Source of the DNA: a virus
DNA: 25,312 nucleotides
Virus record (IMG/VR): IMGVR_UViG_3300050821_002018
Span: 1 to 25,312 of that record
Reading direction: 5' to 3' (one strand)
A program made the translations under genes and the position numbers. The notes beneath the pieces are model-generated. The model ran no database searches. It was not told where the DNA came from and worked only from the letters and a program-made list of their open reading frames with translations. This document shows, piece by piece, positions 7,579-25,312 of the stretch. The first letter of the stretch is position 1. Each line of letters starts with the position of its first letter.

Positions 7579-7941
7579 TTACACCTGCTGGGATTGAATG
7601 TATTCTATCTCTGCGGCTATCTGCTCGGCAGAGATGGGCTTTGTTAGAGTCCTAACGCCAGCAGCACGAAGCGGCTTAATAGTAGAATCTTGAGAATTCG
7701 ATGTGATAACAAGAACATTCTTCACCACCCCCCTCTGCTTTAGGTCGAGAGCAACATCTTTCCCACTGCCTGGAACCATGATGACATCCAATACGGCAAG
7801 GTCTGGCTTAAGCTCTTCGCATAGCTGCGAGGCAGATCGGGCGCTCGTCGCGCAACCAACAATCTTGCAACCAGCCATTTTAAGGTACTGGTTAAGCCTT
7901 CCGCGCATAATCACCGAATCGTCGGCATAGATCGCCGTCAT
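7579..7941 (-). CDS. CheY-like response regulator, receiver domain only
   Basis: This 120-aa protein is a complete stand-alone receiver domain. Starting from the ATG at 7941 the canonical residues are all present: the acidic pair D7-D8 (TAIYADDSV), phospho-acceptor D52 (LAVLDVIMVPG), the switch Thr T80 (VLVITSNS) and Lys K101 before Pro (LTKPIS). The length matches CheY and there is no output domain. Receivers of this type accept phosphate from a histidine kinase; no kinase is present here, so a host kinase would have to serve (inference). The ATG shares its A with the stop of the 40-aa membrane protein gene (TGATG), and AGGAAGG lies upstream. It is an unexpected gene among neck and tail genes. 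Confidence 0.93.
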   Translation of the reverse strand: MTAIYADDSVIMRGRLNQYLKMAGCKIVGCATSARSASQLCEELKPDLAVLDVIMVPGSGKDVALDLKQRGVVKNVLVITSNSQDSTIKPLRAAGVRTLTKPISAEQIAAEIEYIQSQQV

Positions 7942-8063
7942 CAATTAGCCTTCCTGATTGTAAGCTTAGCCACAACCCAAGCCGAAAGGTGCCAGCCGAA
8001 GCCTATTACGAAGCCAACGGCAAGCAGAAAGAGAAAGTATTCCCATGACCAATGAGGTTGCAT
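7941..8063 (-). CDS. 40-aa single-span membrane protein
   Basis: A short frame fills the space between the neck gene and the receiver gene exactly. Its ATG at 8063 follows the neck gene TAA directly, and its TGA overlaps the receiver ATG by one base (TGATG). The product begins MQPHWSWEY, continues with a hydrophobic span (FLFLLAVGFVIGFGWHL, residues about 10-26) and ends in a basic tail (KLTIRKAN), which suggests an inward-facing C terminus by the positive-inside rule. It is rich in aromatic residues. Tight coupling on both sides supports it being real. Function is unknown; holin-like, regulatory or receiver-partner roles are all possible. Confidence 0.75.
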   Translation of the reverse strand: MQPHWSWEYFLFLLAVGFVIGFGWHLSAWVVAKLTIRKAN

Positions 8064-9719: not shown

Positions 9720-9741
9720 GGGGGCCCATTGCTGAGCCCCC
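9720..9741 (-). terminator. GC-rich hairpin after the major capsid gene
   Basis: The transcript would fold as GGGGGC, a 10-nt loop, then GCCCCC, followed by TACTATTATTCT. It lies about 35 nt downstream of the capsid stop. It lacks an unbroken U run, so it may be a partial terminator or an mRNA-stabilising hairpin that lets capsid be made in excess over the next genes. Confidence 0.45.
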
Positions 9742-9774: not shown

Positions 9775-11268
9775 TTAAAATGCACTCGCGCACTGAATCA
9801 TCACGCCACGCTTGTAGCGCATGTAGTCAGACGACAGGATGATCGTCGGGTTGGACGATTTATCCGTGCGCGGAACGAAATCGCCCTGGTAGTCATACGC
9901 CATTTTCACAACGTCGCCCAGGGTGTCAATCGCGGCCAGGGTGCGGAATTTAATCCGGTCAACCCAGCGGGTATCAGCTACGTCTCCAATGCCAGCAACG
10001 ATGCTGGAGGCTTCCTTCGCGCCCTTGAAGGGGTGCTCGGCGATAACGTCTTGCCCGAAGACAAGGCCGTGACGCAGTTGGAACTGACCTGCAGCAGCCG
10101 GGGCCGCGTAGGTCGGAACCTGGGTCGCTTCCGTGAACTCAAGGCCCCAACCGGCAGCAATCACGCCGTCTTGGAAGACCGGCGAAGAATGCCAACGTGT
10201 AGCCGTCGCACGCTCGAAGCCCTGGTCCTGGTAGACCTGAGCAAGCAGCGTCGAGTCAATGGCGCAGCCGTAAAGACCATTGGCCAGTTTCGGAACGCCA
10301 CGACGCTTCAGAATCGAAGCGGCATAGGGGAACATCTGAGTCGGGTTCAGGATGTTGGTCGAAGCCATCGCGTAGGCGGTGGTGATCATATTCCCAGAAC
10401 CGTTCAGCGGACGCACAACGAAGGAGCCGTCCTTGAACACTGGGTTCAGGGGCGAGCCAACGGTGGGCGGGTTAGCTGCGAGCGATGCGCCGGGGTCAAG
10501 AGCGACAATGCGATCACCGGTGGACCACGTTTCCGAGGCCGCGAGTGTCAGCGTGCCGCTTTGACCGAACACCTGATTGCCACCAACCATGTAAGATTGG
10601 CTGGGCGAGTCAAGCGAGACCGCAGTTACGGTCGTCAACGACAGAATGTCGCCGGTAGAGTTGGAGACAATCGCGACGTTGATCGGGTTGCTCGAAGAGA
10701 CGGCAGACGGCGTCTTATAGTTGGGCAGGTCCGCAGACGGGAACTGAGCCAAGAAGCCGTTGCAGTTGTCGGCATGGAAGCTGGTCGAGGTCGCCCCGGC
10801 AAGAGCGAACGTGTCGCCCGAGTCATACGCCTGCCACAGACGGTTGGCGCAAACCAACTCGAGGGAGTTACCGGCCTTCTGGCCGATGGCGTAGATGTTG
10901 TCGAGGTAGACGCTGGCGATCAGCGCCGTGTCGCCGGTAACGAAGGTCGGGAGGAATCCCGGCCAACGATTCAGCGTAGCGGTCCACTGCTCAAACGAAC
11001 GAACATCGGCGGTCATGCCGTTGTCAAGGCCCGTATTAAGCGCCGGATTGAGAGGGTTAATGTTCGGAGCGATGAGGGCACGCGCAGTGAAGGTTTTAGT
11101 TTCACCGATATTCGCGTCGAACCAGTCATCAGCACTGACATTTTTGGGGCGAAAAACGTAAGACGGAAGCATGGCTTCCCGGATTTTTCTTTCCAGGAAG
11201 AGTTTCTGCTCCATTACGTCAATCATTGGCAAGGGAAAACCATTGCCCCCGCCGCCATTGATAGGCAT
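9775..11268 (-). CDS. Major capsid protein (HK97 fold)
   Basis: This 497-aa protein forms the icosahedral shell. It follows a scaffold gene, as expected. The N-terminal region (DVMEQKLFLERKIREAMLPS, then FDANIGETKTFTARALIAP) has the N-arm and extended-loop look of P22 gp5-like or related coat proteins. A beta-rich insert at about 200-265 (SNSTGDILSLTTVTAVSLDS, then TLTLAASETWSTGDRIVALD) resembles a small I-domain. The rest returns to the P and A domains (YAMASTNILNPTQMFPYAAS, RGVPKLANGLYGCAIDS, HGLVFGQDVIAEHPFKG) and ends with KRGVMIQCASAF. The ATG has GGAG 9 nt upstream. Fold assignment is by pattern; the family subgroup is uncertain. Confidence 0.88.
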   Translation of the reverse strand: MPINGGGGNGFPLPMIDVMEQKLFLERKIREAMLPSYVFRPKNVSADDWFDANIGETKTFTARALIAPNINPLNPALNTGLDNGMTADVRSFEQWTATLNRWPGFLPTFVTGDTALIASVYLDNIYAIGQKAGNSLELVCANRLWQAYDSGDTFALAGATSTSFHADNCNGFLAQFPSADLPNYKTPSAVSSSNPINVAIVSNSTGDILSLTTVTAVSLDSPSQSYMVGGNQVFGQSGTLTLAASETWSTGDRIVALDPGASLAANPPTVGSPLNPVFKDGSFVVRPLNGSGNMITTAYAMASTNILNPTQMFPYAASILKRRGVPKLANGLYGCAIDSTLLAQVYQDQGFERATATRWHSSPVFQDGVIAAGWGLEFTEATQVPTYAAPAAAGQFQLRHGLVFGQDVIAEHPFKGAKEASSIVAGIGDVADTRWVDRIKFRTLAAIDTLGDVVKMAYDYQGDFVPRTDKSSNPTIILSSDYMRYKRGVMIQCASAF

Positions 11269-11393
11269 TGTGTAATGCTCCTAAGGAGAGTGTTGAAATG
11301 GTTTGAGCACTTTGCCTCTCATCCAAGCGGCTGGCTCGCGACCGAATCACTGCCATCCGGCAGGCTCTTCAGGTCGGCACTGATGTGCAGGGG
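11269..11393 (-). other. Largest intergenic gap (125 nt), leader of the capsid gene
   Basis: This is the longest gap in the window. It holds a small hairpin (CTGCC, loop GGAT, GGCAG at 11350-11363) and, just before the capsid ATG, a short inverted repeat (CTCC TTA GGAG, 11278-11288) that includes the ribosome site. No convincing -35/-10 promoter pair was seen. Confidence 0.4.
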
Positions 11394-12164
11394 TTAGGCT
11401 CGCTTTGAACGAAGCCGCTCCTCTAATTTATCGAAGTCTTCTTTCGAAAGCTTCGATGCATCAACGTTTTTGTCACTGCCGCCCTTTTTGCTATCGGGGC
11501 GCTCGAAGCGACCAGTTGCAGTGCGGCTTTCGGTGGTTTCCTCGTCCTCGCCATCTGTTTTAGGCTTGAACCAGGCTTCTTTTTCCTCAACAAGACTGTC
11601 AAGGAAAGCTTTAAGCTCCTCTCGGTTAATGCGACCATCTTTAACGGTCACAATATCGAGATCGAGCAAATCTACTAATTCTTCGGTGATCAGACCACGA
11701 GAAACTGCTCCAGACCTAACGGCCTCTTTAACAAGTGCCTCGTCACGAGCCTTGAGCGTTGCGTCAAACTTGACTCGCTCGGCCTTGGTCATGTCCTCGA
11801 AGTTTTTGTGCTGAGCGTCTAAGGCCTTTTCCAATTTTTCGATTCGCTGCTTTGAGGTAAGCTCTTCGTTTTCTTTCTTGGCCTTTTCGGCCTCTTCGGC
11901 CTTAGCTCTTTCGAGATCGGCGGCTTCGCGCTCGGCGATCTTAGCCTTGGTCTCATTCAACTCTTTTTCAAGAGTCTCTGCTCGCTCGCGGTGAGACTTA
12001 GCCTCTTCGTTGCGCTTATGGATGGCCTTTTGGGCTGTGTCGTCAATGCCAAGCTCTTTAAGCTTTGCCTCAACGGCGGCACTCAGGGCCTTATCGTCAA
12101 CGACGGGCTTATTCTCTTCTGTATTCGGGGCAACGTTTTTAACTGAACCTAGGGCGTCAGCCAT
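11394..12164 (-). CDS. Capsid scaffolding protein
   Basis: This 256-aa, highly charged protein is the internal scaffold for shell assembly. Residues about 25-140 form an almost uninterrupted coiled coil rich in Glu, Lys, Ala and Arg (KSHRERAETLEKELNETKAK, then AEEAEKAKKENEELTSKQR). Residues about 145-200 look like a small folded domain (VSRGLITEELVDLLDLDIVT, then INREELKAFLDSLVEEKEAW). The C-terminal 55 residues are disordered and charged, and end in a basic segment (EERLRSKRA) that in other phages contacts the coat protein. It precedes the capsid gene, the standard order. AGGAG lies before the ATG. Confidence 0.88.
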   Translation of the reverse strand: MADALGSVKNVAPNTEENKPVVDDKALSAAVEAKLKELGIDDTAQKAIHKRNEEAKSHRERAETLEKELNETKAKIAEREAADLERAKAEEAEKAKKENEELTSKQRIEKLEKALDAQHKNFEDMTKAERVKFDATLKARDEALVKEAVRSGAVSRGLITEELVDLLDLDIVTVKDGRINREELKAFLDSLVEEKEAWFKPKTDGEDEETTESRTATGRFERPDSKKGGSDKNVDASKLSKEDFDKLEERLRSKRA

Positions 12165-12449: not shown

Positions 12450-12995
12450 TTACTTCAGGAGTCCCGAGCCGCCGAGAGCGTTAAACACAACCGTGCCACC
12501 GTGACAGTTAACCGAAACGAGCGGAGAGCCAGAAGTGGCGATCTCATTCTCAACCTGGAACATCGAGTTACCGTTATACGGGAAGTCGTACACTCCAGAG
12601 GCCGTAATCCAGCCGGTGATATTGGCGACGTTATACAGGTTGGCAACGGTACTCGCCTGAGTTACCGCCATCGTATCTGCAAACGCAGAAGCTGCCGTTA
12701 CAGAAACTTCACAATATCCGCTTTGAACGGCGGTGTTAAGGTTCACAATCGTAACTGCGGTCGAGACCGTGTTAAGGTTGAAGGCATTGTACCAGGAGTT
12801 GGGGTAACCAGCCGACAGACCGAGGTCTGGGCTCGGAGCACCAACGGCGGTTGCAACTGCAGTCGGGGTCGCGGCAGGGGCCGTGATCGTCGCAGCAGGA
12901 GCGGGCGCCCCACCCATTTCGGGAGCGAAGTGGATGTTTACGCCGACACCGAAGAAGGCAGCGGCGACGAACAGTCCGATGAAAAGACGTTTCAT
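12450..12995 (-). CDS. Exported or membrane-anchored beta protein, unknown
   Basis: This 181-aa protein begins with a classical export-type N terminus: basic MKR and a hydrophobic core (LFIGLFVAAAFFGVGV). No clear AxA site follows, so it may be an anchor or be cut later in the Ala/Pro/Thr-rich linker (residues about 30-55). The C-terminal domain is beta-rich, with two Cys in a layout like the exported domain of the glycosidase gene: SGYCEVSV early and VSVNCHGG late, suggesting one disulfide and secretion (inference). It lies 3 nt after the portal stop and has AAGGA before its ATG. An exported protein between portal and scaffold is odd. Confidence 0.7.
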   Translation of the reverse strand: MKRLFIGLFVAAAFFGVGVNIHFAPEMGGAPAPAATITAPAATPTAVATAVGAPSPDLGLSAGYPNSWYNAFNLNTVSTAVTIVNLNTAVQSGYCEVSVTAASAFADTMAVTQASTVANLYNVANITGWITASGVYDFPYNGNSMFQVENEIATSGSPLVSVNCHGGTVVFNALGGSGLLK

Positions 12996-12998
12996 TGT

Positions 12999-14639
12999 CT
13001 ATCCTTTTGAAGACGAAGAGGCGTTCGCGCCACTTCCAGGAGGTGTAGATGGTTTATTTGGGTCAATCGGTGGAGGCGTTACCTCGCCGCTGCCCTTGAT
13101 GTCTTGATATGGACCGTGAAGTCCAATATCAGATGCAAGCTTAGCGCCAGCGGCGTCATCACTAACCAACTCCTTGGGATTTTGCAGTGAACCACCACAG
13201 GCAAGTTGAAGGCCGGTAACGTGGTCGAGCAACTCCTTGCCTTGGAGTACATTATCACTGGCCCACTCGAGGAGCCTTTTTGCGCCATCAGGTATATCCC
13301 CGATTTCAAATCCTGGGATATTCAGAAGGCCAATTGAAATTCCGTAAAGCGTTAGGGATATAAGCTTAAGGTAGCCGTAATCCCCATAAGGGTAACGCTG
13401 ACGGCGGATAAGTCTTTGCAGAGGCTTGCCGCTCTTGTCTACTGCGGGACCAGAATCAACACCCTTAAGGTGTTCGGCTCGCATTTTAGAGCCACCGAGA
13501 ATCTCCATGATGTACTCTCGCACATCTTGAACAAACTCTCTCTGCTCCTTTAATCCCTGAGCATTGATCTCAAGAACCTTTGCATCCGCATACTGTCCCT
13601 GCCCAACTAGGACATTGGTTGGACCGCTCACCGGACGACCCTTGTCGTCATCGTGAGTTGAGGTTCCGCCTAGCGCGCTAGAGCTTCCGCCTGGCCCAAC
13701 GGTTAATTCGTTGTTACCGGTGTAGTCTAACTCGCCGAGGCGAATGAAGAGGCGCGGGTCTGCCGTGTACCGAAGGCCACGACCGGCTTGAGAGAGGGCG
13801 TAGTCTGCAGCAATCAAAAGATTGCGGGCTGGCCACCAAAGGCACATCCCGTCTTGATCGCGGCGCTTACCGCCAAAATTCTTGATTACAAAGAATGGAC
13901 AAACACCCTTCCAGCCGTGAGGCTCAACCGAATGCTGCTTAAAGGAAATGATGTCTCCATACTTATCCTTCGTTCCCAGATCAATATAGGTCCTGTCTGG
14001 CAATGGGACATATTCGGTAATGCTGTATGAATCAATCAGGTAGCGATACCAAAAGGTATCTTCTCCCTTGTTCTCATCATCGTCTAGATTGGCACCCTTT
14101 TTAGCTGCAGCTTCCGGGGAGATGGGATAGGTAACCATGAGTCCCGAGGGGTTTGCTTGATTCCTCGAGACGAATACCTCTTCGCACCACTTACCGGGAA
14201 GAACGTCGTAAATCGGGAGGGCGCAATCGTCTGCCTTGTGAATGACGACCGCCACCGAACCAATGACTCCGTCCTCATATATCTCTTGCATGACGCCTTC
14301 AAGGTGAAGGTCTCTTGCTAGATCATCGAGAGCAGACTCAGCTTTGGCGTCTTCCTCGCCCTGCTTGGATACAACCTTGATCGAAGGAAACTGCTCGTCT
14401 CCGAACAGACCGGCGAAGGTGTCCTGTGTAACTTCCCATGCAAACGGGAGATCAGTGTCGGGACGCCGCTCCTTGAGTTGGATGTATCTCTTGCCGGGGG
14501 CGCTATCTTGATCAAACGACCAGTCAAGGTCTTCGTATAGCTCACCCGTCAGTTGGCGTCCAAGGGCCTCGTGTAGACGAAATCTAGGCGAGGCCCCGCG
14601 AGGAAGCTTAAGACTGTCCTGTAATTCTCTGAACGCCAA
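12999..14639 (-). CDS. Portal protein
   Basis: This 546-aa protein forms the dodecameric ring through which DNA passes. It starts with TTG, with AAGGAG 8 nt upstream and no ATG nearby. The N-terminal half contains portal-like segments (LERRP-type turn in KERRPDTDLPFAWEVTQDTF, then EGVMQEIYEDGVIGSVAVVI and YDVLPGKWCEEVFVSRNQ). The stem and helices follow (ARNLLIAADYALSQAGRGL, then EQREFVQDVREYIMEILGG and RMRAEHL-like KMRAEHLKGVDSGPAVDKSG). The C-terminal 35 residues are Pro/Ser/Gly-rich and disordered. It is most like SPP1 gp6-type portals, though the subgroup is not certain. It lies far from terminase, with about 10 kb of other genes between. Confidence 0.85.
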   Translation of the reverse strand: MAFRELQDSLKLPRGASPRFRLHEALGRQLTGELYEDLDWSFDQDSAPGKRYIQLKERRPDTDLPFAWEVTQDTFAGLFGDEQFPSIKVVSKQGEEDAKAESALDDLARDLHLEGVMQEIYEDGVIGSVAVVIHKADDCALPIYDVLPGKWCEEVFVSRNQANPSGLMVTYPISPEAAAKKGANLDDDENKGEDTFWYRYLIDSYSITEYVPLPDRTYIDLGTKDKYGDIISFKQHSVEPHGWKGVCPFFVIKNFGGKRRDQDGMCLWWPARNLLIAADYALSQAGRGLRYTADPRLFIRLGELDYTGNNELTVGPGGSSSALGGTSTHDDDKGRPVSGPTNVLVGQGQYADAKVLEINAQGLKEQREFVQDVREYIMEILGGSKMRAEHLKGVDSGPAVDKSGKPLQRLIRRQRYPYGDYGYLKLISLTLYGISIGLLNIPGFEIGDIPDGAKRLLEWASDNVLQGKELLDHVTGLQLACGGSLQNPKELVSDDAAGAKLASDIGLHGPYQDIKGSGEVTPPPIDPNKPSTPPGSGANASSSSKG

Positions 14640-14677
14640 GACGGAATCTCCTTATGGTGCCAGAAAGTAAAGGGAGT

Positions 14678-16663
14678 CTAGAAGTGGACTGAGCCGCGAA
14701 GTATGATGTCGAAGTTTGAGGAAAGCGTGAAGCCGTGAAGCATGGTAAACACGCTAGAGGGCCACGGATTCGCTCCGCTTGCAGATAAGCCAAACCTGAA
14801 GGCTGGCACTGAACCAGTGTCTGTTACATAAGCTCCATACTGTTGAAGTTGAACGCAGACGGCTATCGCCTGAGCAGACGGCTCGGTGGCACAATTAATT
14901 GAGCCGGGTCCGACTGATCTCAACCGAAGCAAGTCGCCCATCATCAAGCACGAACCAGATGATGTTCCACAGGTCCCTGCGCCATTTCCAATGCCCGGCG
15001 AGATATTTACACCGCCGCTACCGTTAAGGAGCGCTGCAGTGGGAATGATCACGCTGATCGGGTGGTTGATTGATGGCAGGGCGGCGTCTTCTCCGAGGTC
15101 AGCAAATCCCAACATTGGGATTCCTCCAACCTGGACATTGTCACCCTTGTTGGCCGACTGAGAGTCGTAGGAGTAGGCCAGACAGTCAACTAATCCGTTG
15201 TAGGCATCGAGTGGCCCACTGGGAGAGGTCCAATTCCATGCGCCTCCTTCGATCACGCATCCCGTATCGGTGTTGACTGTTACGACATGACAATCGCCAG
15301 AGCAACCAGAAAGAACGGTGCCCTCCATGTGGAAGACTCCATTGACCCAAGGAGCACTATAGCCAGTGCCTCCCCCGTGCGGTCCAACCGATATGGGAGG
15401 ACTGTGCCCAGACGGGCAATTAGTTGGCGGAGAGTACACGGCTCCGTTGGCGCAGTGAACCAGGAATGTTCCCGTTGCATTAGTCGCGATATTGGTTATC
15501 AGCAGGTCTGCATCATTTCCGGTCGGGAAGGTGATGAGGTGACTGACATTACCAATAATCGTAGAGCTATTCGGGTCAACCGACATCCCAGAAATTACGG
15601 CATTAACAATCGGGTCCGGTGCAGCAGAGGCTCCACTGTATACCTGAATGTTATCCCAGCAGTAGGCGCCAGCGGGACAGGCTCCCGGCGTAGCCGTTGG
15701 GCTTGGCGTTGGCGTTGGCGTGGGAGTTGGCGTGGGAGTTGGCGTCGGTGTAGGCGTAGGAGTCGGAGTAGGTGTGGGCGTCGGGCTCGGAGTAGGAGAA
15801 GGGGTGGGGGTGGCCGACGAAGCCGGTGCGAACAAATCCAGAACGGTATCCTGATGGGCAAAGCTATTGGGGGCCGTCATTGTCATGCTTGCGGAGTACG
15901 AAGCAAAAGAACTGAGATTTGTGTCGCTATAAAGATTGGTCGTAAACGTAGCAGAGCTAGCGCCCAAAACAAGAGTCGTAGGAGACACCGAGCTAACGGT
16001 CTGCCCTCCGGTACCCGTCATCAATAAGGCAACCGGAAGGTCACCAAGATCGGTTGGAATCAGGGACGACGTAGAGAATGGGCCGGACCCAGAAATAGAT
16101 GTCTTAGCGAATTGATGCTGGTCAAACGGTGAGGTTTGATTAACCTGCGTTACGTCTATTGTGAACGCGAGACACTGTCCGTTGGCCACGGAGTCGGCAT
16201 AGGTCCAGCTTGTTCCATCCGAACCGGTGGAATACTTCCAATACTCTGCGTACGGGAAGTTGGTGCTGGTCGAAGAGTCTTCAGTCGCGAACCCTGCCGG
16301 TGCCGTGAAGGCTCCGGTGCTATTAGAAATCAGATAGATGACGATGGCATCGCCAGCCGCAGGCTGTGATGCGAGAGCGGCGGTAGTGTTCGACGTTGAG
16401 CACGACCCAGAGGCGTTGGTCGGCGTTTGAGCCATTGTCGGCAGCGGAGCCGGAGTTGGAGTTGCCGTAGGCGTCGGGGTTGGTGAAGGCGTCGGGGTTG
16501 GGCTAGGCGTTGCCGTGGGTGAAGAGGTTGGGGCCGGGGTGTGGCAGTTGTTGCCACGGCGGCAACAGCAATGTTTCTGCGCCACTTGGGCGTGACTTAG
16601 CTGGGTCCCAATTCCAATACAAAGAGCAAGGAAAAAGAGCGCTGAGACAATTGCCTTCTTCAT
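14678..16663 (-). CDS. Secreted multidomain protein with Pro-Thr linkers
   Basis: This 661-aa protein has a Sec signal peptide (MKKAIVSALFFLALCIGIG, likely cut after SHA at residue 25). Next come a Cys cluster (HCCCRRGNNC, 31-40), a Pro-Thr linker (about 42-76), and a beta domain at about 85-280 with GDAIVIYLISNSTGAFTAPA, like the N-terminal domain of the 727-aa protein. A second, near-perfect Thr-Pro linker (about 284-326) leads to a C-terminal domain (330-661) with many Cys and the segments SINHPISVIIPTAALL, GDLLRLRS and QLQQYGAYVTDTGS, which recall a secreted bacterial domain of unknown role. It is coupled to the upstream gene by TAATG. Function unknown; polysaccharide binding or cleavage is a guess. 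Confidence 0.75.
   Translation of the reverse strand: MKKAIVSALFFLALCIGIGTQLSHAQVAQKHCCCRRGNNCHTPAPTSSPTATPSPTPTPSPTPTPTATPTPAPLPTMAQTPTNASGSCSTSNTTAALASQPAAGDAIVIYLISNSTGAFTAPAGFATEDSSTSTNFPYAEYWKYSTGSDGTSWTYADSVANGQCLAFTIDVTQVNQTSPFDQHQFAKTSISGSGPFSTSSLIPTDLGDLPVALLMTGTGGQTVSSVSPTTLVLGASSATFTTNLYSDTNLSSFASYSASMTMTAPNSFAHQDTVLDLFAPASSATPTPSPTPSPTPTPTPTPTPTPTPTPTPTPTPTPTPSPTATPGACPAGAYCWDNIQVYSGASAAPDPIVNAVISGMSVDPNSSTIIGNVSHLITFPTGNDADLLITNIATNATGTFLVHCANGAVYSPPTNCPSGHSPPISVGPHGGGTGYSAPWVNGVFHMEGTVLSGCSGDCHVVTVNTDTGCVIEGGAWNWTSPSGPLDAYNGLVDCLAYSYDSQSANKGDNVQVGGIPMLGFADLGEDAALPSINHPISVIIPTAALLNGSGGVNISPGIGNGAGTCGTSSGSCLMMGDLLRLRSVGPGSINCATEPSAQAIAVCVQLQQYGAYVTDTGSVPAFRFGLSASGANPWPSSVFTMLHGFTLSSNFDIILRGSVHF
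15686..15814 (-). repeat. Thr-Pro linker repeat (second tract)
   Basis: About 43 residues of nearly pure Thr-Pro pairs (with a few Ser-Pro) are encoded here. The 6-nt unit varies at third positions, so it is maintained as protein and is not a recent slippage product. It separates the two large domains of the 661-aa protein. Confidence 0.85.
16436..16540 (-). repeat. Pro-Thr linker repeat (first tract)
   Basis: About 35 residues of Pro/Thr/Ser/Ala repeats follow the signal peptide and Cys cluster of the 661-aa protein. Such linkers are common between modules of secreted bacterial enzymes and adhesins. Confidence 0.8.
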
Positions 16664-17544
16664 TAGTACGCTTCAGCCTTTACACTACAGTTACCATAAA
16701 GGGTGTCGTTAACAGTGGTTGAACCTTCGGCGTAACACGCCATCGTAAAGGTTGCTCCATTGGCCACCAACAGGTGAGCCTGAGCGTGCTGACTTAATCC
16801 AGGAGCGGCAACTGCGTTGTCTCCCCAGCCTGGGCCACCCATGAATGTATTTGTGAGAGGAGAGGTGGCGGTTTGACACTGACTTGCCGCATCAGTGGTA
16901 GAGTCCTCAAGGTTATACGTCGAAGACGAGGTGGCGCACATATAGTCAATTTGGGCTGAGTTGGTAGCCTTACTAAGGTCCATGTTAACCGTGAGGAGCC
17001 ACTCGTTGTTGGCTCCATTAGAGGTTGATGGGACAGTTATGGAGACATTTGAGCCAAGCTGAACATAAACCGTTGCGGTCGTTCCAGTTTGAACATTATG
17101 CTGGCCGGTCGAAGCGAAAATTGTTCCGCCACAAACCGGCACATTGGTTACAACGCTTGGGAATGACCCCGTATCCGAAACCGCGGCACCGCAGGCCGTA
17201 GCCGTAGCTGCGGGAGAAGGAGCAGCCGTACCGGTGCCGCCATTTGCAACTGAAATCGGTAGCGGAGGTGGAGTATTGGAAACAAAGCAATTGTAATTAG
17301 AAACCACTCCGTCGCCGCTAGAACCAACGGTATACCCATAAAAAGCACACGCAGTTGGGGCCGGTGTGGGGGAGCCGCAAGCAAAGGTCGTAGAGGATTG
17401 GGCCCCGCCATTGGTGACCGTATAGGACACCTTTTCGCATCCAGACTGCTGAGCTTGAGCGGCCTTGAAATGCAACCCGTGCGTTCCGGCGAGACCGCCT
17501 AAGATGGCGACGAACAGGGCTAAAGATACTAAAATCTTCTTCAT
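16663..17544 (-). CDS. Secreted protein with tail-fibre GGTG motif
   Basis: This 293-aa protein combines an export signal with a tail-fibre hallmark. The signal peptide is MKKILVSLALFVAILGG, cut probably after AQA (residues 29-31). Residues 36-95 hold two short Cys-containing repeats (SYTVTNGGAQSSTTFACGSP and YGYTVGSSGDGVVSNYNCF), which look like one ancestral unit duplicated. PISVANGGTGTAAPS (96-110) is the motif seen before the distal domain of many phage fibres. The C-terminal 170 residues form a beta domain (EWLLTVNMDLSKATNSAQI, then NGATFTMACYAEGS) with several Cys. AAGGA precedes the ATG. It could be a surface-displayed receptor mimic or fibre; the signal peptide argues against simple virion assembly. 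Confidence 0.75.
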   Translation of the reverse strand: MKKILVSLALFVAILGGLAGTHGLHFKAAQAQQSGCEKVSYTVTNGGAQSSTTFACGSPTPAPTACAFYGYTVGSSGDGVVSNYNCFVSNTPPPLPISVANGGTGTAAPSPAATATACGAAVSDTGSFPSVVTNVPVCGGTIFASTGQHNVQTGTTATVYVQLGSNVSITVPSTSNGANNEWLLTVNMDLSKATNSAQIDYMCATSSSTYNLEDSTTDAASQCQTATSPLTNTFMGGPGWGDNAVAAPGLSQHAQAHLLVANGATFTMACYAEGSTTVNDTLYGNCSVKAEAY

Positions 17545-17552
17545 GGTATTCC

Positions 17553-17984
17553 TTACAGGGCGGCCCCAGGAGCAGCATTACAATGGACGTTGCCGGTGAT
17601 CACCGGGGAGGTTGCCCCGCTAAGGACGAGAGCTAGAACCGATTCTCCACTCACAGGAACTGTGATGTGTTTTCCAGCGGCCGTAATGGTTTGCGTAACC
17701 GTGCCCGGTACGCCCATGTCGGCGGCTCCACTAACGGCGTAATATGTCGTAGTGGCATCTGCGTTAACTTCCAGCGTAATGGTGCCGGAGCCCATCGTTG
17801 AGCCGGAGTTTACGGTGACCACACAGTAGCTCATGCCGTCAATGTTGTTAATCGTAACCGTGCCATTAGCTGCGAAAGAAAACGGTTGCGTGGGAAAAGA
17901 CGTATAGGGGACTTGTGCCGAAGCGCCCAGCGGGAGCAGGGTCAGGGCAAATCCCAATAGAATAGCCTTAGCCAGATTTAACAC
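17553..17984 (-). CDS. Secreted stand-alone copy of the glycosidase N-terminal domain
   Basis: This 143-aa protein is a signal peptide plus a single domain. The GTG at 17984 is chosen as start: GGAG lies 8 nt upstream and the product then begins with a clean signal peptide (MLNLAKAILLGFALTLLPLG, cut after ASA at 23). Longer frames upstream run deep into the glycosidase gene. The domain matches residues 29-137 of the upstream glycosidase at 79 of 109 positions (72% identity by hand alignment, no gaps). Two Cys are shared (MSYCVVTV and TGNVHCN). The gene overlaps the glycosidase stop by 17 nt. It is a tandem partial duplication; the domain's ligand is unknown, with binding to glycan or the cell surface inferred. 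Confidence 0.8.
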   Translation of the reverse strand: MLNLAKAILLGFALTLLPLGASAQVPYTSFPTQPFSFAANGTVTINNIDGMSYCVVTVNSGSTMGSGTITLEVNADATTTYYAVSGAADMGVPGTVTQTITAAGKHITVPVSGESVLALVLSGATSPVITGNVHCNAAPGAAL

Positions 17985-19809
17985 TAGTAACGCTCCAGGG
18001 CGGAATCGAGATTGTAAAATTAGTCGTCCAGGCAGGCAGGGTTGATGCCTGAGGGCCATCCCAGGTCGGCGTGGCACTATTCGTTAGGTCGAACAATGTC
18101 TTATAATACTGCGTGATTGTTCCACCAGCACCGGTTGTGTGGCTGTCTATTGACACAGTGACAATGTGAGCCTGTGTCTGTGATCGGTTAACGATCATCA
18201 GAGAAACGCCAGAGCTTTCAGAGCAGGAGTACTCTGCCAGGTCTCCGGTGGCATCCGTGAGGGTGCTCTTGATAATGTTTATGCAGCCCTGCATGAAGCT
18301 TCCGGCGACCTCGAGTCCTGCGCCAGGAGCTAATACCGTTCCAGCCGCAGGCTGCCCAGAAACACCGTTGCACGTTCCCGTGAGCGACGCGTTAGAAAGC
18401 GATTGAGAGCCGGTAAAGGTCAGCCATGCTCCGTATAGACCTGAGCGAGCGTTAATCGCCTGGCAATTCGCCGTTCCTGCGTGAAACTCTAAGACAGAAA
18501 CCCCATCCTGGGCCGCCTCTCCAACCATCTCTGCGTTGAAGAGAGCCTGGACAATGCTCTGAGTCTGGTAGGAGTAGCTGGAGGGGATGGTACTGTATTC
18601 GCCGACAATCATCTTGGCCGATGGGCTCCCGCTCGCCGCTATGTCAGCCTTAAGCTGAGTCATAAAATTAGCGGTGAAGTCACCTGCCGGAGCCGCCAGG
18701 GCGCCAGCGTCTGTTTCGTTGCCAGGAGTCGTCCAATAGTAGTGGGCGTCTGCACAGTCAAACGTCTGCGCCATGACCACGCCATCCCAGGCTGCGCCTT
18801 GAGGGCCAGACTGTTGGGGGTCGGCATCTAAGCAGACAGAAATCCCGGAGTCTTGAGCCAGCATAGCCGTGCGGAAGGTCGAGAACTGAGCCTTATAGCA
18901 ACTATCGTTTGTATTCGGAGTACAAGATAAGGTCAGGGCACCGGAGTTGTATTGCTCATTGTCTACGGTCCAGTAATGGCATTGGGTATCTGGACACCCA
19001 TTCGTTACGACAATGTCGTTGATCATGCCCTGAACATCGGCGGTCGTATTCCCGCCGGTGCAAGCGGCATTGGTGGCCTCATTGACGATGACATGGCCAA
19101 GCCTTGTGCCCAAAAGGGCAACAAAGGCGGCGTCAGTATTGACCGGGGTTTGGCTAATGAGGCAAGACCCTGAGCCGCAGGTATTCGTTGACCAGTGCAG
19201 GCAATTGCCAACCGTGCCCTGCGGATACCGCATAGAGGTGAGGCCGATTGTTGAAGCCGCCGTCGCCACTGATGCCCCAGTAAATGGGCCAGAGCCAGAC
19301 AAGAGGTTCCCGCCAATTAGATCAGGGGAAGCCGGGCCGTAGGTTTGAGTGGGATGAACGACCAGCGTCGAAAGAGAAGCGCTCCCCATGAGGGAGAATC
19401 CCGGAGCCGAGTTACAATGAACGTTCCCGGTGATAGAGGGCGATGTGGCTCCGCTAAGAGTCAAAGCTAATGTAGCCTCACCAGAAACCGGGATGGTCGC
19501 ACGAGCCCCGGCAACCGATATAGACTGAGAAACTGAACTAGGGGCCCCCATGTCTGGGGTTCCGCTAACCGGGAAGTAAGTTGTAGAGGCATCTGAGTTT
19601 ACGCCAAAGGTAATTGACCCAGAACCCATTGTTGAACTGGAATTCACCGTCACCACGCAGTAACTCATTCCGTCAATATTGTTGACCCGATAGGTTCCAT
19701 TGGCGGAAAAAGAAAATGGCTGGGTGGGGAGGTGTTGCCCCTGAGCAGAGGTGATTATCGGAGAAACCAGCAGGACCAAACCAAACAGGAGTGTCCAGAA
19801 TCTAACCAT
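17968..19809 (-). CDS. Secreted clan GH-A-type glycoside hydrolase with N-terminal beta domain
   Basis: This 613-aa protein has a signal peptide (MVRFWTLLFGLVLLVSPIIT, cut near SA at 22), a beta domain at about 29-137, a TIM-barrel-like catalytic region at about 155-500 and a C-terminal beta-sandwich (about 515-610). Barrel landmarks are MRYPQGTVGNCLHW (193-206), acid/base Glu E285 in YWTVDNEQYN, the ADAHYYW strand (354-359), and likely nucleophile E404 in KMIVGEYST. The 119-residue spacing between the two Glu and the 'R-Y-P-x-G' strand fit retaining enzymes of the GH39/GH51/GH79 sort. The exact family and substrate are unknown. Expected action is on plant, soil or bacterial polysaccharide outside the cell (inference). 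Confidence 0.8.
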   Translation of the reverse strand: MVRFWTLLFGLVLLVSPIITSAQGQHLPTQPFSFSANGTYRVNNIDGMSYCVVTVNSSSTMGSGSITFGVNSDASTTYFPVSGTPDMGAPSSVSQSISVAGARATIPVSGEATLALTLSGATSPSITGNVHCNSAPGFSLMGSASLSTLVVHPTQTYGPASPDLIGGNLLSGSGPFTGASVATAASTIGLTSMRYPQGTVGNCLHWSTNTCGSGSCLISQTPVNTDAAFVALLGTRLGHVIVNEATNAACTGGNTTADVQGMINDIVVTNGCPDTQCHYWTVDNEQYNSGALTLSCTPNTNDSCYKAQFSTFRTAMLAQDSGISVCLDADPQQSGPQGAAWDGVVMAQTFDCADAHYYWTTPGNETDAGALAAPAGDFTANFMTQLKADIAASGSPSAKMIVGEYSTIPSSYSYQTQSIVQALFNAEMVGEAAQDGVSVLEFHAGTANCQAINARSGLYGAWLTFTGSQSLSNASLTGTCNGVSGQPAAGTVLAPGAGLEVAGSFMQGCINIIKSTLTDATGDLAEYSCSESSGVSLMIVNRSQTQAHIVTVSIDSHTTGAGGTITQYYKTLFDLTNSATPTWDGPQASTLPAWTTNFTISIPPWSVTSVKSG

Positions 19810-19818
19810 GACTCCCCT

Positions 19819-20166
19819 TTAGGTTGGGCTTTGAGTGCCTTGAACGAATAGACCCTTGCGATAGTCAAATGAAAAGGTTTCAAATCCCGTATTGGTGATC
19901 TTAACCTGAACGTCATACCAGCCGGGCCCAGAGGCCGCAAACTCTCCGCCAACCCGTACGTAGCTAGCAATGGAGCCACCAGTATTTGGGCTCAGTGAAA
20001 GCTCTATTGGGGTTGTATTGCCGGGAGGATTGAGCGTCAACCAGAGCGTAGCTACATCGCCAGCGTTGAATACATACGGAGCGACGTTGACGCTTATTGG
20101 GACCCCAACGCCGTTGATCGGTATAACGCCAGGGGCTTGATACTGAAAGGGTGGAAGACCCGCCAT
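19819..20166 (-). CDS. Small beta-rich protein, unknown, possibly fibre-associated
   Basis: This 115-aa protein lies between the long repeat protein and the glycosidase. It has no signal peptide or membrane span. It reads as a single beta-sandwich: VPISVNVAPYVFNAGDVATL, WLTLNPPGNTTPIELSLSPN, then SYVRVGGEFAASGPGWYDVQ and VKITNTGFETFSFDYRKGLF. The pattern resembles small Ig-like or carbohydrate-binding-like modules that decorate phage fibres, though no family motif is decisive. It starts with ATG just after the 727-aa protein stop, preceded by GGGGG, and stops 9 nt before the glycosidase start. Its role may be tied to the fibre-like protein upstream. Confidence 0.65.
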   Translation of the reverse strand: MAGLPPFQYQAPGVIPINGVGVPISVNVAPYVFNAGDVATLWLTLNPPGNTTPIELSLSPNTGGSIASYVRVGGEFAASGPGWYDVQVKITNTGFETFSFDYRKGLFVQGTQSPT

Positions 20167-20169
20167 TCT

Positions 20170-22353
20170 TTAGCCCCCAATGGTGATAGTAACGGAGGTG
20201 ACGGCTGGAAGCGTAAGCTCCGTGCTATTTAGGATTTGAGTGTTTAGGGTGACCTGTGAGTAAACCGGAAGGTTCAGGGTTATGCCCATGTGGGCTTCCC
20301 CGCCAGTAAACAGACTCGAGATCGCCGTGATAACGGCGCTCCATGCCCGGGAGATCATTCTGTTGATCGTTCCGGCAGGGGTGATCGAGTCTAACAGGGC
20401 CTTGAAGATCGGGACAATGGTCTGCAGGGCGCCGGTCTGAGTAATCGAACCGGTGAACCTGCGGGCTATCGCGGAGGCAAGCGTACCCGCCCCCGCAACC
20501 GCCCCAACCAGGGCGATGGCCGTCTGCTTGGTGAGGAAGCCTACGGCCGTCATCGAGCCCGAGAGGAAGGCGACGACGCTCCTGGAAGTCTGTCCTAGGG
20601 CCGTGATCGAACCAGACAAAGCCGCCCCAATAGAGCGGCCCATAGAACCGGATTGATCTACCGACCCAGACACAGGCATCTCTGCCTGCTTGGAAATATC
20701 ACTCTGAGGAAAGATGTGCTCGGTCAAGAGGGTGATCACGAACAACTGACCGCTCTCAACTAGCGTTCCTGTGGCCGTTATGGCCCCTGAGAGCCCGGCA
20801 AATATGGCCCGCCCCATAGAGCCCGCAAGGGTCACGGAGCCCGCCAGAGCCTTAAAGAAGCCCCTAGAAATGGCACCGGTCGGGGTGACCGAGCCGGTCA
20901 ACAGGGATTCGATAGACCTGCTGAGAGAGCTTAGCCCAGTGATCGAGCCATTTAGTAGGGCGACCACTTGTTTTGATAGGGCCGAGTTTGGGGCTATCGA
21001 GCCAGCCAATCCGACAAAATACCCGGCAGCGGTGGTGAGGCCGCTCGCCGCTGTGATCGCACCGGTGAGGATGACGGTCAGGACGGAATTGGTCGTCATG
21101 GAGCTTGCCGAGGTTATGGAACCTTCAATAGCTCGAGCCGTTATTGTAGCTTGTGAGCTAACCTGCACTATGGTTCCGGCCAGATTGGCAAAGACTGTCT
21201 TTAAAATAGAGCTTGTGGCGGTGACCGAACCGCTCAAGACGGCAGACGGGTTTCGGATTACCGAATGCTGGTTGGGCTTAACCTGGCCAGACAGGGCCCT
21301 AGCCGTGGACCGCAAAATCGAACTGGCGCCGGTAATTGACCCGGTTAAAAGCGAGACAATATTCTTCGAGAGCGCCCCGCCAGCGGACGTTATGCTCCCG
21401 GTGAAGCTAATAAAGAGCCCGGCAACAGAGGAGAGGGCGCTGGCCGGAGTTATTGAGCCAGACTGAAGGGCGGTGATTACTCGTCTATTCGCCGAACTAA
21501 CTGCAGCGATTGAGCCTGACAGCGCTCTCTGAGCTTGCTTTGCTAATGTCCCGACCGGAGTTAAGTTACCGGACAGAATCGCCGAAAGAAAGTAAAGGAG
21601 CGTGCCAACCGCAGTTATAGAACCAGTGAGAGAATGAACTATGGCCGCCTGAATTGCCGAGCCAGCCGAGGTGACTGACCCAGAAATGGCGCTTCCAACA
21701 GACTTGACAATCGAACTAGCTGGAGTAACGCTACCGGAAACATTCGAGCCAACGATCTCGTACAGGGCTATGATCGCTGCGCCAGAAACGGCGGTGGTAG
21801 AACCTGTCCAGGTACACGTTCTCGTGAGCGAAGAGGTGCCAGCCGTAATTTGCGTGAAGCACGCGCCGGTTCCCGTGGTTCCCCCACTCAGTGCGAGTTG
21901 ATGGACCATGCCGGTGATCAGGGTTGGCGCAGTATCTGCTGCACTGGCTGCATAGCAAGTCAAGAAGAGCGCATTAACTGCCTGCGTCGGCGTGATTGCC
22001 GTCGTGGTGATTACCGGAGGAGAGGCGGTGGCTTGCTGCTTAGTGCTAAAAGTAAACGTTTGAATGGGCGCAAATGAACCCAAGTCTGAATGATACTGAA
22101 CGACCGAGGTATTTCCACTGGTTGTAAACGGTGTTACCGTCGTAGTTGAGCCAGCCGGTACAATCTGATAGGCCAACTGCAGCGACCAAGTAGAGGCGTT
22201 GAGATTGCCGATGGCCGTCCAGCCAGCAGTAACTCCTGAAACCGTAGACTGATTCCAATTGGCAGCGATCAGAATGTCGCCTTGCGTCGGCGCCGTTCCT
22301 AGAACGGCAGAGGTTCCAGAACCCTGAGCAGACTGAACGACCGTTATAGCCAT
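20170..22353 (-). CDS. Large repeat protein, putative tail fibre or adhesin
   Basis: This 727-aa protein has three parts. Residues 1-200 form a beta domain (GDILIAANWNQSTVSGVTAG, then ALFLTCYAASAAD) of the jelly-roll kind also found in the 661-aa protein. Residues about 205-680 hold about 25 tandem copies of an 18-residue unit with consensus [ST]G[SA][IV]T, a small residue cluster, then a short helix-like half ending in hydrophobic-Leu (for example TGSITGASSILRSTARAL). The last 40 residues are beta-rich (TLNLPVYSQVTLNTQILNS, later ELTLPAVTSVTITIGG). The unit suggests a solenoid or fibrous stalk. AGGAG precedes the ATG. No signal peptide. It is likely a virion-attached fibre, but this is inferred. 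Confidence 0.8.
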   Translation of the reverse strand: MAITVVQSAQGSGTSAVLGTAPTQGDILIAANWNQSTVSGVTAGWTAIGNLNASTWSLQLAYQIVPAGSTTTVTPFTTSGNTSVVQYHSDLGSFAPIQTFTFSTKQQATASPPVITTTAITPTQAVNALFLTCYAASAADTAPTLITGMVHQLALSGGTTGTGACFTQITAGTSSLTRTCTWTGSTTAVSGAAIIALYEIVGSNVSGSVTPASSIVKSVGSAISGSVTSAGSAIQAAIVHSLTGSITAVGTLLYFLSAILSGNLTPVGTLAKQAQRALSGSIAAVSSANRRVITALQSGSITPASALSSVAGLFISFTGSITSAGGALSKNIVSLLTGSITGASSILRSTARALSGQVKPNQHSVIRNPSAVLSGSVTATSSILKTVFANLAGTIVQVSSQATITARAIEGSITSASSMTTNSVLTVILTGAITAASGLTTAAGYFVGLAGSIAPNSALSKQVVALLNGSITGLSSLSRSIESLLTGSVTPTGAISRGFFKALAGSVTLAGSMGRAIFAGLSGAITATGTLVESGQLFVITLLTEHIFPQSDISKQAEMPVSGSVDQSGSMGRSIGAALSGSITALGQTSRSVVAFLSGSMTAVGFLTKQTAIALVGAVAGAGTLASAIARRFTGSITQTGALQTIVPIFKALLDSITPAGTINRMISRAWSAVITAISSLFTGGEAHMGITLNLPVYSQVTLNTQILNSTELTLPAVTSVTITIGG
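20310..21740 (-). repeat. About 25 tandem 18-codon repeats
   Basis: Units of about 54 nt encode the GSIT-type repeat of the 727-aa protein. The protein pattern is kept across all copies, but the DNA has diverged, so the array is old. A few units are longer (19-22 residues) and one or two are degenerate (for example one starting TEHIFPQSDIS). Limits are approximate. Confidence 0.8.
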
Positions 22354-22377: not shown

Positions 22378-22405
22378 AAGAGCCTCCCGGTTAAGAGAGG
22401 CTCTT
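22378..22405 (-). terminator. Hairpin between the accessory block and the fibre block
   Basis: A perfect 9-bp stem (AAGAGCCTC / GAGGCTCTT) with a 10-nt loop is followed on the transcript by TCATTTT. It sits in an 83-nt gap between the 109-aa gene and the 727-aa gene. It has the form of a modest intrinsic terminator; partial read-through is likely, since no promoter was seen after it. Confidence 0.65.
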
Positions 22406-22971: not shown

Positions 22972-23205
22972 TTACCAGCCCTTCCAGGCTCCGCCGCCGT
23001 CCTCCGGAGAGGGCGACGGGGAGGGTCCAATGAACGGGAGATCATCTGAGACTCCAGTATCAAAATCTCCCCCGTCCATCTGGCCAGAAGATGAGGAGCT
23101 AGAGGTACTCGGCACTAGGCCCAACGTAACGTTAGAGCCCGAGCAGCCGGTGGCTGAACCCGCTAGCGACATGGCGAGAAAGGAGATAAGCGCCATTTTT
23201 CTCAT
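22972..23205 (-). CDS. Small lipoprotein, putative
   Basis: This 77-aa protein has an N terminus of the lipoprotein kind: MRKMALISFLAMSLAGSATG followed by Cys21, which fits the general lipobox pattern (small residues at -1 and -2, uncharged core). The mature part is only about 57 residues, Ser-rich, then acidic and Gly-rich (GGDFDTGVSDD), and ends with a SPSPSP stretch. Phage lipoproteins of this size include superinfection-exclusion proteins and outer-membrane spanins, but no inner-membrane spanin partner or endolysin is visible here, so neither is assigned. AGGGA lies upstream of the ATG. Confidence 0.75.
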   Translation of the reverse strand: MRKMALISFLAMSLAGSATGCSGSNVTLGLVPSTSSSSSSGQMDGGDFDTGVSDDLPFIGPSPSPSPEDGGGAWKGW

Positions 23206-23416: not shown

Positions 23417-24208
23417 CTACGAACCCGAGGGGAGGCTGAGCGTGAAGCTGAACTGGATGGAGTCTCCGTTGATCACGTTGATCGCCGAAAAGACCTGGTG
23501 ATCGAGCATAACCGGGCGGATGGTCAGGGCGTCGGCGTTGGCCGGAGTCGTACCTGCGGCAGTGCCGTCAGTGACCTTATACCAAGCCGGGACGGTAATT
23601 ACGCTCGAGGTATTCGAGATACACAGACCGTAGATGTTTGGCGACTTCGTGGTGTCAACAAAGATGAACTGCTGCTGTCCCTGCACGGTTGAAGACGACG
23701 CCGTGTAGGGCGTGCCGGTAACCGTACCACTCGTGGCGGAGCCCGCAGTGAACGGGGTCCCGGTCGTGGCCGTAAGGGTGGCACTGTCAAACAGGCCCCA
23801 CTCGGTGACCGCTTCCGTGCCGGTGTAGTTGATCGTTCCGACAACCTTGGACGCCTGCGAGTTGGCGGCAGAGACCAAAGAGATCACGCCGGTCGCCGGG
23901 GTCATTGCGTCTGCGGTCTGCAGAGAAATGTCTGTCGCAGCGGCACCGGTGACTCCGGTCCCGGTGGCCATAAACTTCTGAATGGCGAGCGTGTTGATCG
24001 CCGCGCCAGAGGGAGCGGCCCAGGCCGAGTCATTGGCCATAGCCATGACGCCAACGTTGGTTACCGTGCCGTAGCCGATGTCAATGACGTTCTTAAGTTT
24101 CTTGTCTCCATCGAAGTGATGGGCCAAGAGGTGTCCCTTCGGAACGAGGTCGTGCCCATGCTCAATAACATGGAGTCCCAATTCAGAATAGTATTTGTAA
24201 TTTTTCAC
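23417..24208 (-). CDS. Virion-type structural protein, putative
   Basis: This 263-aa protein starts with GTG (AGGAG, 7 nt upstream), overlapping the stop of the preceding gene by 4 nt (GTGA). It resembles a family of phage structural proteins recognised by a Gly/Thr-rich centre, a 'GTINYTGTEAVTEWGLFDSA' strand-turn-strand, and a closing motif FSAINVINGDSIQFSFTLSL; all are seen here. The N-terminal 40 residues (ELGLHVIEHGHDLVPKGHLL) are His-rich and helical-looking. These proteins are usually annotated as decoration, fibre or virion proteins with no proven role. There is no signal peptide. The role here is not known. Confidence 0.75.
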   Translation of the reverse strand: MKNYKYYSELGLHVIEHGHDLVPKGHLLAHHFDGDKKLKNVIDIGYGTVTNVGVMAMANDSAWAAPSGAAINTLAIQKFMATGTGVTGAAATDISLQTADAMTPATGVISLVSAANSQASKVVGTINYTGTEAVTEWGLFDSATLTATTGTPFTAGSATSGTVTGTPYTASSSTVQGQQQFIFVDTTKSPNIYGLCISNTSSVITVPAWYKVTDGTAAGTTPANADALTIRPVMLDHQVFSAINVINGDSIQFSFTLSLPSGS

Positions 24209-24461: not shown

Positions 24462-24676
24462 CGCATTAACCAGCTAATGAACATTTGCGCCATCCAGAGC
24501 ATCCGTTCAAATGTTGGATTACCATAACACTTACGAAATACGCGACCATCACGGTCACTGCCAATCACAATCATTGTCGTGCCATCTTTTTCACACATGC
24601 ACTTTATGAATTCCACAAGTGCCTGCTGGCCAACAATAGATTCCATTTGCTTGTCTAAGCCTACCGGTTCATCCAT
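24458..24676 (-). CDS. 72-aa protein downstream of terminase, unknown
   Basis: The ATG at 24676 lies inside the terminase gene's last codons (16-nt overlap), and the stop overlaps the GTG of the 33-aa gene. The product is MDEPVGLDKQMESIVGQQAL, then FIKCMCEKDGTTMIVIGSDR, RDGRVFRKCYG and a hydrophobic, Trp/Met-rich end (MLWMAQMFISWLMR). The C-terminal segment may be amphipathic rather than a membrane span. No known family was recognised. Its tight linkage to terminase suggests a shared expression unit. Confidence 0.7.
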   Translation of the reverse strand: MDEPVGLDKQMESIVGQQALVEFIKCMCEKDGTTMIVIGSDRDGRVFRKCYGNPTFERMLWMAQMFISWLMR

Positions 24677-25312
24677 CCCATATACCTCTCAGCTACGTCT
24701 GATTTTCTGTACCCGTTTTGACGCTGAATGGACCTGATCATCATTTGACCCAACATCAAGGACGTTGTGTCAACCTGGTCGTCCTTCTTGTTAGCACTTC
24801 CGGGAAACTCCAGATGCTCTTTAACCCAAGCATGAAGCCAGGGTGCGTACTTCGGGAGCTTAACCTTGTGCGCCATGAAGGGACCAAGGACTCTTTCTGC
24901 TCGAGTTTCCTTGGAGTCCATTGGGACAACGCCCACGATTGGTAGGCGAGTCTGCATGCGAACGGTTTGAATCACGCCGGTACCAGATTGCTTGTCTTCA
25001 ACGACAATCAAATCCGGCTTCCAGATTTCAGCCTGTTGTTTAACGGCCTCAATCAAAATCGGCAGAAGAACCCGCGCTCTCCAAACGTCGAGAAGGTAAT
25101 ACCAGACATCATCCATGCCCCACGTTGCGATCACCGAATAGTCATTCGATGGGCCATCTTTCCACGCGGAGTCAATAGCTTGTCCAACGAATAACTTCGA
25201 CCCTCCAGTAATGTTGCCGAAGAAGTCGCGATTGATGATCACTCGCTCTGGTTGCTTGTCGTAGGTCTCGGTGAACCAATCGGAATTAAAAAGAAGCCCT
25301 CCTTCTGGGAGG
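24661..25312 (-). CDS. terL: Terminase large subunit, C-terminal nuclease part (runs off the right edge)
   Basis: The frame is open to the right edge, so the ATPase half lies outside. The visible 216 or so codons are the RNase H-like nuclease that cuts packaged DNA. Seen in order: a lead-in (LPEGGLLFNSDWFTETYD), the first acidic strand region with D at AIDSAWKDGPSNDYSVIATW, then WYYLLDVWRARVLLPILIEA, PDLIVVEDKQSGTGVIQ (a second acidic site), RLPIVGVVPMDSKETRAERV, and the last acidic pair in ANKKDDQVDTTSLML. This order is that of the TIGR01630-type terminase C terminus. It gives the transcription direction of the whole block. Confidence 0.93.
   Translation of the reverse strand, partial: LPEGGLLFNSDWFTETYDKQPERVIINRDFFGNITGGSKLFVGQAIDSAWKDGPSNDYSVIATWGMDDVWYYLLDVWRARVLLPILIEAVKQQAEIWKPDLIVVEDKQSGTGVIQTVRMQTRLPIVGVVPMDSKETRAERVLGPFMAHKVKLPKYAPWLHAWVKEHLEFPGSANKKDDQVDTTSLMLGQMMIRSIQRQNGYRKSDVAERYMGWMNR

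Follow-up and report, generated by a model that had tools for sequence, protein, structure and literature searches.

Genes with predicted export signals among the structural genes of a contractile-tailed phage and its relatives

The locus

The DNA analysed here (the window) is the whole of virus record IMGVR_UViG_3300050821_002018 (25,312 nucleotides), a linear IMG/VR contig of 25.3 kb from a contractile-tailed phage that is known only from metagenomic sequence; all genes lie on the minus strand. The genes are arranged in the order TerL C-terminus, a gene cassette, portal, a 181-amino-acid (aa) protein, a 71-aa protein, a scaffold-like protein, the major capsid protein (MCP), neck, sheath, tube and tape measure. 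An earlier interpretation made from the sequence alone (the sequence-only reading) had placed five genes with export-type signals between terminase and scaffold and a lipoprotein gene further upstream, and all six were recovered in the present analysis:

17968..19809, minus strand: 613-aa predicted exported protein (signal 19738-19809, score 9.5; 16 Cys)
17553..17984, minus strand: 143-aa predicted exported protein, a single-domain paralogue of the 613-aa protein (signal 17916-17984, score 10.3)
16663..17544, minus strand: 293-aa predicted exported protein with a tail-fibre-style VANGGTG motif (signal at about 17488-17544, score 9.7; 10 Cys)
14678..16663, minus strand: 661-aa predicted exported protein (signal 16589-16663, score 10.1; 18 Cys)
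12450..12995, minus strand: 181-aa protein, predicted to be exported or anchored in the membrane, encoded between portal and scaffold (signal 12942-12995, score 7.9)
22972..23205, minus strand: 77-aa predicted lipoprotein with the lipobox ATGC (score 8.7)

Export signals

Signals were scored with a home-made rule-based scorer that looks for a charged n-region, a hydrophobic core and an A-x-A type cleavage site. The scorer was calibrated on three regions of E. coli K-12, in which all exported proteins (26/26) scored at least 7.76 and all cytoplasmic proteins (69/69) at most 6.96. On this scale a Sec/signal peptidase I (SPase I)-type signal is predicted at the N-terminus of all five proteins (scores 7.9-10.3), the remaining 24 called genes of the window scoring at most 3.4. 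The gene of the 77-aa lipoprotein was displaced by an overlapping open reading frame (ORF) in gene calling and was therefore scored separately; its predicted signal is followed by a lipobox Cys, as in bacterial lipoproteins (SPase II). Shuffled N-termini of the window reached the cut-off in 0.9% of cases and shuffles of the five themselves in 3.4%, and the probability that all five fall within one six-gene run by chance was P = 4e-5. A second hydrophobic segment was present in none of the five (0/5), and an identity as signal-arrest-release (SAR) endolysin, spanin or holin was rejected, given this absence, the lack of a lysis domain and the size of the products (143-661 aa).

Gene junctions within the block and with the portal gene are tight or overlapping, and the genes are apparently co-transcribed with the head genes; promoter-like sites in the block region were no commoner than expected by chance. 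Because of these junctions, because a Shine-Dalgarno-like match stands at the signal-bearing start in four of the five genes, and because none of their later in-frame starts retains the signal, we consider the start codons of the five genes firm.

When the same scorer was applied to the structural regions of well-studied phages, it picked out none of 26 genes in Mu, two of 29 in P2 (both lysis genes) and one of 25 in lambda (Lom). Among 86 core structural genes of the window's own lineage none scored as exported, the top score being 5.6. The presence of a run of signal-bearing genes at this position is both real and unusual.

Cysteine content and domain structure

In the window, the mature parts of the predicted exported proteins contain 2.7 Cys per 100 residues versus 0.60 in the other proteins. 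Lineage-wide, the number of Cys residues was even in 22 of 25 predicted exported proteins versus 28 of 62 Cys-containing core structural proteins (Fisher p = 2.5e-4), a statistic whose weight for the interpretation given below is reduced by the counting of orthologues, which are not independent. The Cys richness and the even counts fit, as expected, disulfides that would form outside the cytoplasm.

Searches of Pfam, NCBIfam, PHROG and PDB yielded no match to any functional family for the five proteins; Peptidase_S74 was not matched by any of them, nor was, in Pfam, the Ail/Lom beta-barrel family. The 613-aa protein consists of an N-terminal beta-domain that it has in common with the 143-aa protein, followed by a large region with the motifs WTVDNEQY and VGEYS, which by eye are glycosidase-like (clan-A-like). 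The paralogy of the two proteins, proposed in the sequence-only reading, was borne out (E=5e-51): the mature domains are 69% identical and the signals 32%, that is, the letters of the signal have drifted and its predicted character has been kept. An AlphaFold2 (AF2) model of the 143-aa protein, which is of low confidence (mean predicted local distance difference test, pLDDT, 57), suggests an eight-stranded beta-sandwich with one Cys pair. Matches of this low-confidence model to a phage baseplate cup, YomS and Ena2A fibres were at the level common to sandwich folds, the best (Z 9.2) being to a phage baseplate chain, and the best PDB sequence match, to a phage cementing protein, was weak (E=0.06). 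Ena-like disulfide fibres were considered for this domain and set aside, as the match was too weak. The 293-aa protein has an alternative cleavage site after residue 31 and, with its VANGGTG motif, gave no match in PHROG. The 661-aa protein contains two Pro-Thr linkers, a beta domain and a C-terminal domain of about 330 aa that recurs in predicted exported proteins of two related contigs, G004 (E=9e-56) and G009, and the 181-aa protein is composed of an Ala-Pro-Thr linker and a small domain with 2 Cys.

Conservation in related phages

Related IMG/VR contigs (denoted by G and L numbers) were obtained with the MCP, with the 263-aa cassette protein and with an alignment of the portal, and whole or near-whole contigs were read. 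Single-protein IMG/VR scans with the portal, the 613-aa protein and TerL gave no relative, no match was obtained when several block proteins were compared by tblastn with named phages, or the 613-aa protein with plasmids, and two scans of bacterial and archaeal genomes gave no relative, so that no host was assigned.

The predicted signal is kept in the orthologues of the 181-aa protein (3/3: window, L002 and G010, the latter two scoring 11.3 and 11.1 at the same genomic place), in the GGTG proteins (4/4: window, G002, G009 and G004) and in the Pro-Thr proteins (3/3: window, G004 and G009). Signals are also predicted in a fibre-like family, here family C (3/3: G004, G009 and G012), whose N-terminal 250 aa are conserved (35-39% identical) and whose C-termini are poorly conserved, and in an NHL-repeat lipoprotein (2/2: G004 and G009).

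The context genes needed to compare gene positions are the following:

24661..25311, minus strand: TerL, C-terminal part (PHROG 38, E=4e-33; Terminase_6C)
23417..24208, minus strand: 263-aa cassette protein, no signal in the window (70-78% identical to the G009 and G004 proteins)
20170..22353, minus strand: 727-aa cassette protein with many 'SGSITxxx' repeats, not exported by score (1.8)
19819..20166, minus strand: 115-aa Ig-like cassette protein, not predicted to be exported (homologues at G004 49301 and G009 44563)
12999..14639, minus strand: portal, not predicted to be exported (25% identity to a Komagataeibacter phage portal, E=1e-22)

Of nine portal relatives, eight have TerL directly next to the portal gene or with a small ORF in between, and the contig of the ninth (L049) is truncated before TerL. 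The block between TerL and portal, which the sequence-only reading had proposed to look for in related phages, is therefore not conserved and is peculiar to the window among the relatives examined. The window portal is 53-54% identical to those of L002 and G002, and blastp of the window TerL against the TerLs of the portal relatives gave no match at E 1e-4, a result suggestive of modular exchange between TerL and portal, the site of the block. Base composition gave no sign that the block is foreign, its GC content being 50-58% throughout.

By comparison of gene orders, the window shares its 181-aa gene between portal and scaffold with L002 and G010, as an orthologous trait of one subclade, and the other four signal-bearing genes are part of a movable fibre-type cassette whose position varies by phage. 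In G004 the cassette (263-aa, SGSIT-repeat and 115-aa genes) follows the baseplate genes, and in G002 and G009 it is located between neck and sheath; in G011 and G013 different large genes stand among those of the neck. Homologues of the 727-aa SGSIT-repeat protein occur in G004, G009 and G002 close to the 263-aa gene, the 115-aa protein has a sub-threshold Pfam match to He_PIG, and the 263-aa orthologues of G004 and G009 start with predicted lipoprotein signals, unlike the window copy.

Several related phages carry one to six signal-bearing genes among their structural genes, most abundantly right after the baseplate genes (G004, G009, G012 and G011). In G012 (L060:3-12085) six such genes in a row, coding for proteins of 149-1284 aa, directly follow the baseplate and fibre genes, and the cluster extends past the contig end; one product (10010-12085) contains a Peptidase_S74 domain (25.6 bits versus a Pfam cut-off of 22) and has PHROG tail and tail-fibre matches. 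In G011 (L058:480-9923) a 3147-aa predicted exported protein with 37 Cys and Pro-Thr linkers, encoded directly downstream of baseplate/fibre-type genes, contains a glycoside hydrolase (GH) family 26 domain (GH26; Pfam 27.7 bits versus a cut-off of 20.2; PDB GH26 E=6e-10). The corresponding genes after the baseplate genes code for 883 and 447 aa in G004 and for 395 and 324 aa in G009, the latter pair immediately before a GH25 endolysin gene. The predicted exported families are thus lineage features, usually located at the tail-fibre locus or in the neck-sheath interval, and the window is, as judged from these gene orders, one arrangement of a lineage-wide habit of placing predicted exported, disulfide-type, fibre-/glycan-related proteins among the structural genes. 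The sequence-only reading had described the genes as a 'late secretome' module; the recurrence of signal-bearing genes among the structural genes of several relatives agrees with this description, but the five do not form one module, and their late timing is suggested by the operon structure.

Interpretation

With moderate confidence, we favour the view that the five proteins and the short lipoprotein are late, Sec-exported, disulfide-bonded proteins of fibre or glycan type that act at the cell surface or outside the cell. The predicted signals and their conservation, the gene order and tight junctions, the Cys enrichment and parity, and the fibre and enzyme domains of relatives all point in this direction. 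The five genes and the lipoprotein gene would be translated from the late structural transcript that also carries the head genes, and the host Sec system would export the products, which would become oxidised, their paired Cys residues forming disulfides. The lineage would build such proteins from fibre and glycan modules (GGTG and Pro-Thr linkers, small beta-sandwiches, variable C-termini and, in relatives, the S74 tail-fibre chaperone and GH26 domains). Secretion late in infection and dispersal at lysis would allow the proteins to bind or trim polysaccharides of the infected cell and its surroundings before and after lysis, so that receptors may be masked or removed and the matrix loosened, to the probable benefit of the phage.

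The sequence-only reading assigned these proteins a job outside the infected cell. A run of predicted exported proteins in a structural operon does argue for a job outside the cytoplasm, but the accompanying assumption that an exported protein is not a virion protein was too strict, because one predicted exported relative (in G012) has an S74 tail-fibre chaperone domain. This domain is characteristic of the tail fibres and spikes of virions, and in G012 it comes behind a predicted signal peptide in a protein encoded right after the baseplate and fibre genes. The proteins might accordingly be virion appendages that, after export, acquire their disulfides and fold in the periplasm or beyond it, and attach to completed virions in the course of lysis or afterwards. 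We consider this unlikely, although it is the main rival reading: the signal-bearing genes lie inside fibre-type cassettes, and family C combines a conserved N-terminal 250 aa with variable C-termini, as in fibres that attach by their N-terminus. On the other hand, a fibre-like gene without signal adjoins the signal-bearing ones in G012 (12094) and G009 (28926), its homology to family C being weak (hhalign probability 21%), and we know of no tailed phage established to mature virion appendages outside the cytoplasm.

Lower still in probability is that the genes are lysogenic-conversion genes (morons) whose exported products alter the lysogen surface. Lambda Lom, which scores as exported in the same test, is such a protein, and its expression extends to the lytic cycle (PMC9836094); related contigs contain a serine recombinase domain (G009) and a tyrosine integrase (G011); no integrase is visible in the window, however, and no convincing promoter or terminator demarcates the genes, whose tight one-directional junctions are unlike those of an autonomous moron. 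That the fibre-like proteins and lipoproteins serve solely to occupy or shield the phage's own receptor, as a superinfection-exclusion set, appears improbable: the 263-aa protein is a predicted lipoprotein in G004 and G009, and the phage surface lipoprotein Ltp is known to exclude superinfection (PMC3952083), but profile searches matched none of the proteins to a known family of exclusion proteins, and large enzymes such as GH26 would be unnecessary for this purpose. That the signals are false, being hydrophobic N-terminal segments of ordinary cytoplasmic or virion proteins, is very improbable in view of the calibration, the A-x-A sites, the conservation in orthologues and the Cys parity, even if membrane proteins can fool the scorer and the cleavage site of the 181-aa protein in the window is weak.

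Several points nevertheless weigh against late, Sec-exported surface proteins. The export signals are predictions of a home-made scorer with which some inner-membrane proteins score high too, and the signal of the 181-aa protein, the weakest of the five, has a poor cleavage site and may be an anchor. The 613-aa protein, named a glycosidase in the sequence-only reading, matches no family in Pfam, NCBIfam or PDB and no GH profile, and that name is not supported. The AF2 model of the C-terminal domain of the 661-aa Pro-Thr protein (pLDDT 31) was not used, and no confident fold was obtained for any of the window's five proteins. Sampling of relatives is thin because they were found by few conserved peptides, and the trait is not essential, since few such genes occur in G002, which has one, and in G013, which has no clear case at the fibre locus.

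Relation to known systems

The genes of tailed-phage structural operons are usually taken to encode virion parts that are produced in the cytoplasm. S74 tail fibres and spikes are, to our knowledge, without signal peptide, whereas in G012 (10010-12085) the domain occurs in a predicted exported protein; none is found in the window. The closest known case in gene position is lambda Lom, an outer-membrane protein and exported product of a gene within the tail operon (score 9.9 here); it is a single 206-aa protein whose mature part has no Cys, whereas the window encodes five Cys-bearing proteins of up to 661 aa. PblA and PblB of Streptococcus mitis phage SM1 are phage tail proteins that also act on the bacterial surface (PMC7600539); as structural components of the tail they depend on holin and lysin for their release, whereas each of the window proteins bears its own predicted export signal. 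Soil viruses encode active glycoside hydrolases, for example a GH5 endomannanase (PMC6786970), and thus resemble relative G011 with its GH26 domain in having carbohydrate-active genes among viral genes; a search of the main text of that study turned up neither signal peptides nor secretion, and the 613-aa protein of the window lacks a GH match. The Ltp-type lipoproteins of Streptococcus thermophilus phages are likewise phage-encoded surface lipoproteins (PMC3952083), but they are host-surface exclusion proteins of temperate phages, and no sequence match to them was found among the window proteins.

In the open-access literature we found no description of exported fibre-type proteins, phage secretomes or runs of exported genes in tailed-phage structural operons. 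The lineage described here embeds one to six predicted exported, disulfide-type proteins, some of them fibre-like, among its structural genes. If these act as free proteins, the phages would prepare the cell surface and neighbourhood before release, which would matter for adsorption, for superinfection and for the turnover of carbohydrates; if instead they become part of the virion, this would be an extracytoplasmic maturation step, and a basic assumption on the site of tailed-phage assembly would need an exception. In either case annotation by position can mislead, an exported head-operon gene being taken for a virion protein or an exported GH for a metabolic gene.

Other features

Immediately upstream of the SGSIT-repeat gene, at window positions 22378-22405 (minus strand), is a hairpin with an 11-bp stem (AAGAGCCTC...GAGGCTCTT) at which the TerL transcript may be terminated or processed. 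Another hairpin, which is GC-rich (9720-9741), lies downstream of the capsid gene. Homologous portals occur in the Komagataeibacter phages phiKX1 and phiKX2, and the tail region of phiKX2 (L003), a cultured phage, encodes a 198-aa predicted exported protein that contains 2 Cys (26704-27300). Amid the neck genes of the window, a free-standing response-regulator receiver domain is encoded at 7579-7944 on the minus strand (Pfam Response_reg, E=3e-15), and homologues are also found among the neck genes of G009 (49574-49936) and G013 (20957-21313).

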